A stretch of DNA of 64,000 nucleotides, taken from NCBI GenBank assembly GCA_016841445.1, contig JAENZD010000001.1, positions 682,001-746,000 of the forward strand. The letters are read 5' to 3'. Positions 32,594-35,913 of this stretch are shown here, piece after piece. The notes below the pieces were generated by a model that saw only the letters and a list, made by a program, of their open reading frames with translations, was not told the DNA's origin and made no database searches. This stretch comes from Anaerolineaceae bacterium (GTDB taxonomy: Bacteria > Chloroflexota > Anaerolineae > Anaerolineales > Anaerolineaceae). A program made the translations under genes and the position numbers. Each line of letters begins with the position of its first letter. Position 1 is the stretch's first letter.

Positions 32594-33745
32594 CTATTTT
32601 TCCTGAAATATTATAATTGAATTTTCAAGAAGGATCATACCTCCAGGGTCCTCTCCTACAGGTAAATCAGGAGCCAATGGAAAGGTCTTGCCCGGGATCC
32701 ACCAGCAGCCGCTGGTGACATGTAATGAGGAACCATCCTGCAGTGTGAACACGTATTGAATGGTTGTTTTCCCGTAAGTCGGCGCGCCGATCAGGGTAGC
32801 TCGACCGTTATTAGATAAAGCACCTGCGATGATCTCTGCCGCGCTGGCGGTATATCCGTTTGTCCAGATCACGATGGGTAAGTCTGAAAAGAGTCCACGC
32901 TCCTCTACTGCGAAAACAACCACATTTTCACCTTTGAACTGCCTGTGAATGATCTCGCCTTCTGAAAGAAACAACTTGGTGATTTCAATACCGCTTTCAA
33001 CCAACCCGCCACCATTATCCCTGAGGTCAAGGATAAAAGCATTGGCACCAAGTTCGATCATCTTATTGATCCCGGTCACCATCTCATCTGTTGTTGTCTC
33101 TGCGATCCTGTTGACCTGCACCAAGCCAATAGATGGGGCATCCGGCACCAGGTTCCAGGAAACGGAAGGCAGGTTAATGACTTTTCGTTCGATGGTGTAG
33201 GTCAGTCTCTCACCATTACGCATTACTTCGATTTCAATTATTTCATCCAAAGGACCACGAAGTTGGGCAATGATAGAAACCTCGTCATTTTCATCTGTTA
33301 CAATCAGGTTACCCACTCGAACCAGACGATCACCATCCTGTAGCCCCGCATATTTTGCTGGAGAATCGGGCAGCGGGTAAATCCGCCATTGGGCATCAAG
33401 ATCACGTTCCAACCTCAGCCCAATCCCTCCAAAACTGCCTGTGAGCTCATCGGCCTGGACTTCTGCTTCTGCTGGTTCTACGAAAAAGGTATAAGGGTCT
33501 TTCACGGTTTCAAGCATTCCACGGATCATCCCGTATTCCAGTTTATCCTCCTGAGGGAGGTTGTGGATGGCGTTTTCAACCAGAATATCCCTTGCTTCGT
33601 GTAAAAGACTGAATTCGCCCTGGTTTCTATTGATCAGGGAATACCCCAGGTAACCCAAACCCATCGCAAGGCCGACGATCAGGACTTGCAGAGTGAGAAG
33701 GATCCAATGATTCTTAATAAAAGACCGCATTTTGGAGAAAATCAT
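32594..33745 (-). CDS. S41 family C-terminal processing peptidase
   Basis: 383 residues. One N-terminal membrane anchor lies at about 15-35 (WILLTLQVLIVGLAMGLGYL), with the rest outside the cytoplasm. A PDZ domain lies around 95-185 (SFGGIGLRLE, PAKYAGLQDGDRLVRVGN). The protease domain has LDLRDNGGG, the nucleophile Ser in NGYTASAAEIIAGAL and the general-base Lys in APTYGKTTIQ. Members cut proteins at the C-terminus or degrade tagged exported proteins. An ATG five codons in is an alternative start. It is divergent from glmS. Confidence 0.9.
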   Translation of the reverse strand: MIFSKMRSFIKNHWILLTLQVLIVGLAMGLGYLGYSLINRNQGEFSLLHEARDILVENAIHNLPQEDKLEYGMIRGMLETVKDPYTFFVEPAEAEVQADELTGSFGGIGLRLERDLDAQWRIYPLPDSPAKYAGLQDGDRLVRVGNLIVTDENDEVSIIAQLRGPLDEIIEIEVMRNGERLTYTIERKVINLPSVSWNLVPDAPSIGLVQVNRIAETTTDEMVTGINKMIELGANAFILDLRDNGGGLVESGIEITKLFLSEGEIIHRQFKGENVVVFAVEERGLFSDLPIVIWTNGYTASAAEIIAGALSNNGRATLIGAPTYGKTTIQYVFTLQDGSSLHVTSGCWWIPGKTFPLAPDLPVGEDPGGMILLENSIIIFQEK

Positions 33746-33842
33746 CCTTGCACCTGCTTAAAACAGCAAATAGAGTATAATAATTCCATCTTATTATACT
33801 TGTTGGTAATAAGGCAATGATTACTCAGTGACATGATGGGAT

Positions 33843-34037
33843 AAAAGCGCCTGGCCCGGTCAGAATGACGGGTGACGAGGATGGAGGTTCCCTGGTGCGG
33901 ACCAGGGTTAACTGAAGGAACTTCAGGAAAATCGAAAGATCGGCGGATGCCTCCCGCTGCAAGAGCAGTTGTCTTCCCAAGTTTGACACAAATGATTCCT
34001 GTCCATCGTGGCCTCGAAAAAGGGCATTCTTTTGGAC
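33843..34037 (+). ncRNA. glmS ribozyme: glmS ribozyme/riboswitch
   Basis: The 5' core reads AAAAGCGCC, with predicted self-cleavage between A33846 and G33847. Then come P1 (CCCGGTCA/TGACGGG), the highly conserved TGACGAGGATGGAGG, and ATCGAAAGATCGGCGGATGC followed by CTCCCG (33931-33955 region), as in Bacillus and Thermoanaerobacter glmS ribozymes. P3 is CTGC/GCAG. GlcN6P acts as a cofactor that triggers cleavage and loss of glmS mRNA. Two extra hairpins (CCCTGGT/ACCAGGG and CTGAAG/CTTCAG) sit between GGAGG and ATCGA, where model ribozymes have almost nothing. The 3' end is approximate. Confidence 0.93.
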
Positions 34038-34071
34038 GCCTGTACTGTTCAATATCTCAGGAGGTATGACT

Positions 34072-35913
34072 ATGTGCGGCATTGTTGGCTATATTGGTGA
34101 TCGCGATTCGACACCCATCATCTTGAATGGGTTAAAACGACTGGAATACAGGGGCTATGATTCGGCTGGTGTGGCAGTGCTCGATAATGGTTCTATTGAA
34201 ATCCGTCGAGATGCCGGAAAATTGAGCCACCTGGAGGCTTTGGTCAATGATACGCCCCTTCACGGCAAGATTGGCATCGGGCATACTCGTTGGGCTACCC
34301 ACGGCGAACCGAATATCCGCAATGCACATCCTCATATCGGCTCAACCGGAGAATTTGTTGTTGTCCATAATGGAATCGTTGAAAATTACCTTGAACTGCG
34401 AGAGGAGCTGGTGGCAGAGGGTACGGTTTTCAAGTCCGAGACTGATACGGAGACGATCGTACACCTGGTGGAAAAATTCTATGCCAGTGGGAGCAATTTA
34501 GAAGAAGCCGTGCGCCAGACCCTCAGTCATATCAGAGGCGCACACGGGATTGTTGTGATGTCCTCCCGTGAACCGGATAAGATCGTAGCCGCCAGGGTGG
34601 GGAATGCCGGGGGTGTGGTGATCGGTTTAGGTAAAGGCGAAAACTTTGTAGCTTCCGACCTGCCTGCGATCCTGGAGCACACACGCAAGGCAATCTTCCT
34701 TGAATCACACCAGATGGCTGTGATCACAAAAGATGATGTGCGGTTGATGGATATCAAGGGGACCCCGATTGCTTTCACGGTTCAAAAAATTGCCTGGGAT
34801 CCGGTCGCAGCAGAAAAAGGTGAATATCGTCACTTCATGCAGAAAGAAATCCATGAACAGGTGCGCTCGCTGACGGATACCCTGGCGGGACGTGTTGATT
34901 TTGACAAGGGGCGCGTGGTTTTACATGAATTAAAGCTGGATGTTGAAAGAGCAAAAAAGATCAAGCGGATCATCATCACCGCTTGCGGTACAGCCGGGCA
35001 TGCCGGGATGGTTGGCAAGATCTTGCTTGAGCGGATCGCCAGGATCCCAACAGAAGTCGCAATCGCATCTGAATTCCGCTATGCCGATCCCCTCTTAGAC
35101 GAGGATACAGTTGTTTTGGCGATCAGCCAGTCGGGTGAGACAGCGGACACTTTAGCAGCGATGGAAGAGGGACGCTCAAAGGGTGCCATGCTCTGGTCAA
35201 ACGTCAATGCAATTGGTTCTCAAGCGATGCGCATCGCTGATGGCTGCATTTCAATGCAGGTGGGGCCGGAGATCGGTGTTGCCTCCACCAAGGCTTTTAC
35301 AGCGCCTTTATTGGATATGTACCTGTTAGCAGTTTACCTTGCTGATTTGAGTGGGACGATATCGCCTGAAAAACGTTTTGAATTGGTGAGTGACCTGGCC
35401 GGGATTCCATCACTGGTTGGACAATGTTTGGATAGAGAACCAGATGTGCTCCGGTTAGCGCAGAAATTCAAGAATATGAACCATATGCTTTACCTCGGCA
35501 GAGGCATCAATATGCCGATTGCTTATGAAGGCGCATTGAAGTTAAAAGAAATTTCGTATATCCATGCGGAAGGTTACCCGGCGGGGGAGATGAAGCATGG
35601 ACCGATCGCGTTGATCGATCGAAACATGCCGGTGGTAGCACTTGCGCCAAAAGACCCCTGGTATGACAAGATGATCAGCCAGATTGAGCAGGCTATGGCG
35701 CGCGGCGGGGAGGTGATCGCGGTGGCAACCGATGGCGACACGCTGATCCCTGATCTGACGGATAACATATTCTGGGTACCTGAAACACCATGGATGCTAA
35801 GCCCGGTCATCACAAGTATCCCTCTCCAGCTATTTGCTTACCATATCGCTTCATTGTTAGGATTAGATGTTGACCAACCTCGCAACCTGGCGAAGAGCGT
35901 GACGGTGGAATAA
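34072..35913 (+). CDS. glmS: glutamine-fructose-6-phosphate aminotransferase (isomerizing)
   Basis: 613 residues from the ATG at 34072, not the ATG two codons earlier: TCAGGAGG is 7 bases before 34072 but only one before 34066, and removal of Met must expose the catalytic Cys of MCGIVGYIG. The class II glutaminase domain (HTRWATHGEPNIRNAHPH, VVHNGIVENY) is followed by two SIS domains (GTAGHAGMVGK, AISQSGETADTLAA, EIGVASTKAFT, HGPIALI) and the C-terminal LAKSVTVE. It makes glucosamine-6-phosphate for cell-wall sugars and is controlled by the ribozyme in its leader. Confidence 0.97.
   Translation: MCGIVGYIGDRDSTPIILNGLKRLEYRGYDSAGVAVLDNGSIEIRRDAGKLSHLEALVNDTPLHGKIGIGHTRWATHGEPNIRNAHPHIGSTGEFVVVHNGIVENYLELREELVAEGTVFKSETDTETIVHLVEKFYASGSNLEEAVRQTLSHIRGAHGIVVMSSREPDKIVAARVGNAGGVVIGLGKGENFVASDLPAILEHTRKAIFLESHQMAVITKDDVRLMDIKGTPIAFTVQKIAWDPVAAEKGEYRHFMQKEIHEQVRSLTDTLAGRVDFDKGRVVLHELKLDVERAKKIKRIIITACGTAGHAGMVGKILLERIARIPTEVAIASEFRYADPLLDEDTVVLAISQSGETADTLAAMEEGRSKGAMLWSNVNAIGSQAMRIADGCISMQVGPEIGVASTKAFTAPLLDMYLLAVYLADLSGTISPEKRFELVSDLAGIPSLVGQCLDREPDVLRLAQKFKNMNHMLYLGRGINMPIAYEGALKLKEISYIHAEGYPAGEMKHGPIALIDRNMPVVALAPKDPWYDKMISQIEQAMARGGEVIAVATDGDTLIPDLTDNIFWVPETPWMLSPVITSIPLQLFAYHIASLLGLDVDQPRNLAKSVTVE

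Follow-up and report, generated by a model that had tools for sequence, protein, structure and literature searches.

The locus lies on the forward strand of the window (the whole 64,000-nt stretch of Anaerolineaceae DNA that was analysed), where the leader of glmS holds a predicted glmS ribozyme core at positions 33837-33979, built from P1, P2 and the P2.1 and P2.2 pseudoknots. The 3' strand of an outer helix, P0, is followed after 86 nt by the start of the glmS open reading frame on the same strand. The second ATG of this frame (34072), from which the protein begins MCGIVGY, may be its true start, and a simple scan of 33650-34080 found no sigma-70-type promoter. The recognised parts, in window positions, are as follows.

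33837-33841 (+), 5' strand of P0, UGGGA, immediately 5' of the cleavage site (class-level partner-swap test)
33846-33847 (+), predicted cleavage site, A(-1) at 33846 and G(1) at 33847, in AGCGCCTG (core numbering from PMC7125110)
33848-33853 (+), 5' strand of P2.2, C2 G3 C4 C5, bulged U6 and G7 (pairing in 52 glmS leaders)
33854-33873 (+), P1 hairpin (both-side changes at 5 of 6 pairs)
33874-33880 (+), GACGAGG, with G26, the P2.1 5' strand C28 G29 A30 and the presumed catalytic guanine at 33877 (kept in 74 of 74 glmS leaders)
33883-33887 (+), 5' strand of P2, GGAGG (P2 100% paired in 52 leaders)
33890-33907 (+), extra hairpin H1, CCCTGGT-GCGG-ACCAGGG, 7 bp with loop GCGG (covariation at 7 of 7 pairs)
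33908-33911 (+), linker UUAA, its UA invariant and the following A in at least 90% of alignment A2 (glmS-leader alignment)
33912-33926 (+), extra hairpin H2, CTGAAG-GAA-CTTCAG, 6 bp with loop GAA (covariation at 5 of 5 counted pairs)
33927-33935 (+), GAAAA-UCGA, an invariant A-rich join and then the P2.1 3' strand (33932-33934), with ATCGA at 33931-33935 (alignment)
33940-33948 (+), 3' strand of P2.2 and active-site segment U51-C52-G53-G54-C55-G56-G57-A58-U, TCGGCGGAT (alignment)
33950-33954 (+), 3' strand of P2, CCUCC (alignment, coordinates read from the sequence)
33955-33971 (+), P3 hairpin, with no P4 motif after it (P4 motif test on 74 glmS leaders)
33975-33979 (+), 3' strand of P0, UCCCA (class-level partner-swap test)
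34066-35913 (+), glmS, glutamine--fructose-6-phosphate transaminase, 615 aa as listed (TIGR01135, 773 bits; PF01380)

A sequence-only reading had proposed a glmS ribozyme carrying two extra hairpins at this place, and the features that it named, including cleavage at 33846/33847, were found where it put them. The scan with the Rfam model that it suggested did return a match to RF00234 5' of glmS, at 33835-33995 (E 1.7e-6 in the local search, 3.1e-6 genome-wide), with a score of 34.2 bits that stays below the gathering cut-off of 37; no Rfam family reaches its gathering score anywhere in the window. The alignment to RF00234 sets additional bases between the GGAGGUU segment and the UCGGCGG segment. 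Of the extent first given, 33843-34037, the core stands, and the right end was drawn too far, as the recognisable parts stop at P3 and the P0 3' strand near 33979.

Searching 101 Anaerolineaceae genomes with RF00234 revealed a match at E 0.01 in 84 of them and one over the cut-off in only 30, such that the Rfam cut-off misses many of these ribozymes. From the 136 matches in the family, 132 loci were counted (G013:C4, G100:C33, G088:C15 and G025:C10:380526 were left out), and these were sorted by downstream gene (tblastn queries: GlmS of the window, GlnA of locus L001), with one glnA assignment made by hand (the L043 tandem), into 74 before glmS, 56 before glnA and 2 before neither. Ribozymes of the glmS and glnA classes occur together in at least 45 of the 84 genomes. 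The alignments held 48 leaders (A1; 46 glnA and 2 other), 52 glmS leaders (A2) and 30 of 42 non-redundant leaders (A6), and two models were made, R1 from 28 leaders and R2, which represents the glmS-class core, from 27. Locus L101 was unparsed and L017 was left out of some counts, and no count rests on a mixed-class alignment (A3), which mis-registered P1.

Evaluating the glmS class across these leaders revealed the same core throughout, with RGCGCNNG (AGCGCNNG) and GACGAGG in 74 of 74 leaders and A at position -1 in 73, the exception being L065 with G. All four core helices pair across the 52 aligned leaders, P2 without exception, P2.1 with invariant pairs apart from one cell, and P2.2 with four of its five pairs invariant (C2-G56, G3-C55, C4-G54 and G7-C52 formed in 52/52). 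The fifth, 5-53, is C-G in 20 of the 52 and unpaired in 32, and two states are found among the 74 leaders, C5 with G53 (25) and A5 with A53 (49). The A5/A53 state departs from the model core and may carry a cost; like the sub-threshold Rfam score, the missing P4 motif and the negative promoter scan, it was counted against the explanation that we prefer. The window itself is C-G here, so that its element has A(-1)G(1) together with the complete P2.2 (C2-G56, G3-C55, C4-G54, C5-G53, bulge at 6, G7-C52), and it also has the P2.1 pseudoknot with the catalytic guanine. We take this guanine to be G29, presumably the equivalent of Tte G33. The segments named in PMC7125110 as active site or cofactor pocket (28-30, 43-45, 2 and 56) are all present in the window element, whose position-6 bulge is a U, which in the core construct reportedly gave about 1.5 times the activity of A (PMC7125110).

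The window's genome carries a second RF00234 match, this one over the cut-off at 43.9 bits (L001:1501-1718, minus strand, equal to G000:C2:221762-221979), that lies about 80 nt 5' not of glmS but of a type I glutamine synthetase gene, glnA (TIGR00653, 529 bits); a search with this GlnA at E 1e-20 found no other match in the genome. The element has the core pseudoknots, P3, P3.1 and P4 (the pairing as judged at class level, the P4 motif in L001 itself) and lacks the canonical P2.2 register with its bulge at 6. The glnA-class core, RGCGRCUG (hereafter the AGCGRC class), was found in 55 of 56 leaders, the exception being L101, where the match begins late, and C5-G54, U6-A53 and G7-C52 are paired in 48/48 leaders with position 4 unpaired. 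A one-base insertion before P2.2 was considered and dropped, as a bulge at position 4 explains the register. Where PMC7125110 inferred shifts of the P2.2 bulge from double mutants, the shift is a fixed natural state in the glnA class. The variable base of xACGAGG, which PMC7125110 and PMC11602151 number as position 26, a base-triple residue, is G in 34 of 54 glnA leaders, A in 10, T in 7 and C in 3. Reading this base as the catalytic guanine, and hence catalysis as lost from the class, was abandoned, given that it is position 26 and that G29 is conserved. Among glnA leaders, 45 of 55 have a terminator-like hairpin in the last 130 nt upstream of the start, compared with 10 of 55 after one round of shuffling; for glmS leaders the figures are 24 of 74 and 12. 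The window genome's own glnA leader showed no such hairpin. In L043 (395-602 and 2480-2648, plus strand), a glnA-type ribozyme, glnA, a glmS-type ribozyme and glmS follow one another in tandem.

In 84,980 species genomes, a pattern scan returned 99 stretches, and among the 80 listed, 77 match R1 (L215 weakly). The first recognised gene within 2,600 nt of these 80 listed loci was glnA at 54, an Ada-like gene at 3 and a small-protein gene at 2, leaving 21 with none, of which 11 adjoin a glutamate synthase-like gene, one (L203) has such a gene further down, five are incomplete loci and four are taken to be chance matches. The last comprise loci labelled Sphingomonas, Deltaproteobacteria and Lachnospiraceae, which do not match R1, and a Bacteroidia locus at 24.1 bits. 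Glutamate synthase was named with Pfam for L223, L218 and L149 and with tblastn from L223 and L218 for the others, and the scan and model-search sets overlap and are not independent (for example, L272 = L188 and L228 = L134); matches in G272 and G141 from one of these searches are not among the loci. In L149, which belongs to the sister family f2, the core 5' of the glutamate synthase-like gene is of the glmS type (AGCGCAUG), so the AGCGRC class is not alone in having this target.

Where f2 loci have neither glmS nor glnA, an Ada-like gene lies downstream in 11 of 12 (Pfam on one); it combines an AraC HTH with an O6-methylguanine methyltransferase. In L137-L144, L166, L186 and L188 of f2, a terminator-like hairpin of the GGCAUGCC type closes the AGCGRC unit, as judged by eye, ahead of the Ada-like gene, which therefore counts only as a possible target. 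In L113, L127, L219 and L257, the AGCGRC ribozyme precedes a short ORF of about 44-58 aa whose end resembles ETIEILLADKIATGG, with no match in Pfam (three tested) or NCBIfam (two tested). Another neighbour is 6S RNA (RF00013), found above threshold upstream of the AGCGRC ribozyme on the same strand at 4 of 40 family glnA loci, at 10 of 20 further loci (among which L272 and L188 are one place) and at L139; the linked loci are L134, L264, L140, L137, L188, L143, L186, L216, L218, L139, L042, L099, L062 and L075. In L134 and L264 the two RNAs are about 26-40 nt apart, which leaves little room for a promoter between them, but in L143, L186 and L216 the distance is at least hundreds of bases. The ribozyme might share a transcript with 6S RNA and trim it; in the window's genome, 6S RNA is located elsewhere and not by the ribozyme.

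The genes downstream bear on whether the AGCGRC class has changed its cofactor, for example to another amine such as glutamine, and not merely its target gene. Its position before glnA, glutamate synthase-like and small-protein genes would suit such a change, as would the rearranged P2.2 with position 4 unpaired and a position 26 that is not G in 20 of 54 glnA leaders. We nevertheless consider it unlikely, as the class retains G1, C2, G29, the strands of P2.1 and G56/G57 and as GlcN6P, itself made with glutamine, could by itself signal the supply of glutamine. The glmS and glnA classes share the catalytic guanine, the cleavage dinucleotide, P2.1 and the pocket segment, and on this ground both most likely act by GlcN6P-dependent self-cleavage. 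Repression of glutamine synthetase when GlcN6P is plentiful would then be a sensible circuit.

Model ribozymes use a P4 periphery, a support outside the active core, for folding. The two classes differ here, as a search for the motif of a GNRA-capped P4 with an A-rich internal loop was positive in 37 of 54 glnA leaders and in 0 of 74 glmS leaders of Anaerolineaceae (shuffled tails, 0/550 and 1/740, respectively). The sequence-only claim that all hallmark stretches are present hence applies to the core segments and does not extend to the P4 motif of the model ribozymes. Across 30 glnA leaders, covariation supports P3, P3.1 and the two parts of P4; the cells are 90.5% paired, both-side changes occur at 20 of 23 pairs, and the covariation score was reached by 0/500 shuffles (lower P4 being weakest, at 79.3%). 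Together with the motif, this indicates that the glnA class kept the canonical periphery. What is missing from the glmS leaders by this test is P4, and the result on P3.1 applies to the glnA class.

P0 is found in both classes, where the strand just 5' of the cleavage site pairs with a strand 3' of P3. Mean stem score was 16.53 in 74 glmS leaders versus 12.51 (sd 0.31) with swapped partners, the top swap of 50 giving 13.3, and 14.26 versus 13.03 (sd 0.21) in 54 glnA leaders, where 0/50 swaps reached the observed value. On the glnA-class alignment, P0 is 90.8% paired, and this percentage and the covariation score exceed all 500 shuffles; support there is moderate, as the covarying-pair count was reached by 205/500 shuffles and the pair-type count by 132/500. 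P0 across the cleavage site is described here as a feature of these leaders. Because P0 spans that site, because the P4 motif is missing from the glmS leaders and because one of 74 has G at -1 (L065), the element could be imagined as a degenerate, non-cleaving GlcN6P aptamer in which P0 takes the part of the closing P1 helix in an ordinary riboswitch and controls glmS without cleavage. This we regard as less probable still than a changed cofactor, as G1, C2, G3, C28, G29 and A30, like the bases they pair with, show almost no variation, and as retention of the cleavage dinucleotide, with its A(-1) in 73 of 74, is not obviously expected without catalysis. A cleaving ribozyme thus remains our reading of the core into which the two hairpins are set.

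Folded alone, the window leader is uninformative (z 0.34), and neither hairpin's reality would show from the single sequence. The alignment of related leaders that the sequence-only reading had proposed beforehand bore out its two hairpins, as H1 and H2 together have 98.2% of cells paired in 52 glmS leaders and both-side changes at 12 of 12 counted pairs. In H1 every one of the 7 pairs is formed in 52/52 leaders, and the 5 pairs counted in H2 have 95.7% of cells paired. Neither the paired percentage nor the covariation score was matched by any of 500 shuffles, the number of covarying pairs was matched by 1/500, and slid controls reached at most 54.4% paired. In the glnA-class alignment (48 leaders), this pair of hairpins is 98.7% paired with covariation at 11 of 11 pairs, RNAalifold recovered both unprompted, and they are present in all 100 leaders of alignments A1 and A2. 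Conserved bases lie mainly elsewhere than in the stems; among the 52 glmS leaders, the UAA between the hairpins is nearly invariant and the GAAAA before UCGA is invariant, while a nearly fixed G-C step marks the loop of H1, and H2 ranges from a short stem to long forms. With stems that vary while pairing is kept and fixed bases mostly at joins, we read H1 and H2 as a structural insert, in keeping with the earlier suggestion that they stabilise the core. The companion suggestion of an added ligand-responsive part found no support; a second sensing domain (for ligand, protein or tRNA) in H1 or H2, making a composite switch, is the least probable of the alternatives, for although the hairpins are in every A1 and A2 leader and the H1 loop step is nearly fixed, the stems vary freely with only joins and one or two loop bases fixed, and the glmS and glnA classes have this pair of hairpins in common.

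Extending the search with R2 to 400 Chloroflexota genomes revealed matches in 123, of which 76 have a long span (106-180 nt) and 47 a short one (68-81 nt) with a direct join, these calls resting on match span with sequences read for part of the long ones. The span is as expected for the H1/H2 insert in 74 of the 76 long-form genomes, G184 and G385 (106 nt) being doubtful. Given the 47 short forms, the insert is not phylum-wide; it marks a large branch of Chloroflexota, other orders and classes included. In L201 (G184), a Chloroflexota glmS ribozyme has its additional bases after AUCGA in the P2.1/P2.2 loop, which is another insertion site.

The window class resembles the RF00234 models from T. 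tengcongensis and B. subtilis in its double pseudoknot of P1, P2, P2.1 and P2.2, its cleavage dinucleotide, its GACGAGG and UCGGCGG segments and its place before glmS; it differs from them in having two hairpins instead of a short join, possibly in the P0 helix across the cleavage site and, across the family's glmS class, in the missing P4 motif. In a large branch of the Chloroflexota, the core is thus enlarged by two covarying hairpins. To our knowledge, glmS ribozymes are quite uniform and almost always confined to glmS leaders. McCown, Roth and Breaker in 2011 reportedly described Deinococcus-Thermus variants with extra stems in the catalytic core and altered supporting substructures, and all but two of their 463 examples are said to precede glmS. 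In the open-licence literature, outside which the main surveys fall (McCown 2011, 2012), we found no glmS-type ribozyme before glnA or glutamate synthase, which does not establish absence from print, and no report of glmS ribozymes in Anaerolineae; few reports for Chloroflexota turned up there, consistent with the sequence-only description of the phylum as little studied. The glnA RNA motif or glutamine riboswitch (RF01739, named in PMC3766115) is likewise tied to glutamine metabolism by name and ligand. It is a different RNA from the glnA-linked glmS-type ribozyme, as RF01739 had no match in the glnA loci scanned (4 + 40), whereas RF00234 was found in many.

With the fold, its covariation, the insertion, the absent P4 motif and the P0 pairing all observed in these leaders, we hold it highly probable that the window element is a glmS ribozyme that self-cleaves with GlcN6P as cofactor and in which H1 and H2 are structural. 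GlcN6P would bind the glmS mRNA leader and serve as cofactor for self-cleavage at 33846/33847, and the cleaved mRNA would be degraded, such that an abundance of its product lowers glmS expression. H1 and H2, which sit where the Rfam consensus links P2 to AUCGA by a few bases, probably brace the P2/P2.1 junction together with the conserved UAA and GAAAA joins, and in Anaerolineaceae the two hairpins and P0 may replace the missing P4 periphery.

For the second class, we give roughly even chances to a scenario in which a diverged AGCGRC lineage, with a shifted P2.2 bulge and P4 kept, was recruited to glnA and glutamate synthase in Anaerolineae, where amino-sugar status, or possibly another amine, would reduce glutamine synthesis through self-cleavage and where, in the lineages with 6S RNA close by, cleavage might free or trim that RNA. 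Having one paralogue without P4 and another with P4 before glnA and glutamate synthase-like genes, these bacteria provide a natural test of how a core folds free of P4; the shifted P2.2 is likewise a natural test of how far this helix can move with activity kept, and the glnA linkage one of whether a cofactor-dependent ribozyme can be reused in another pathway.
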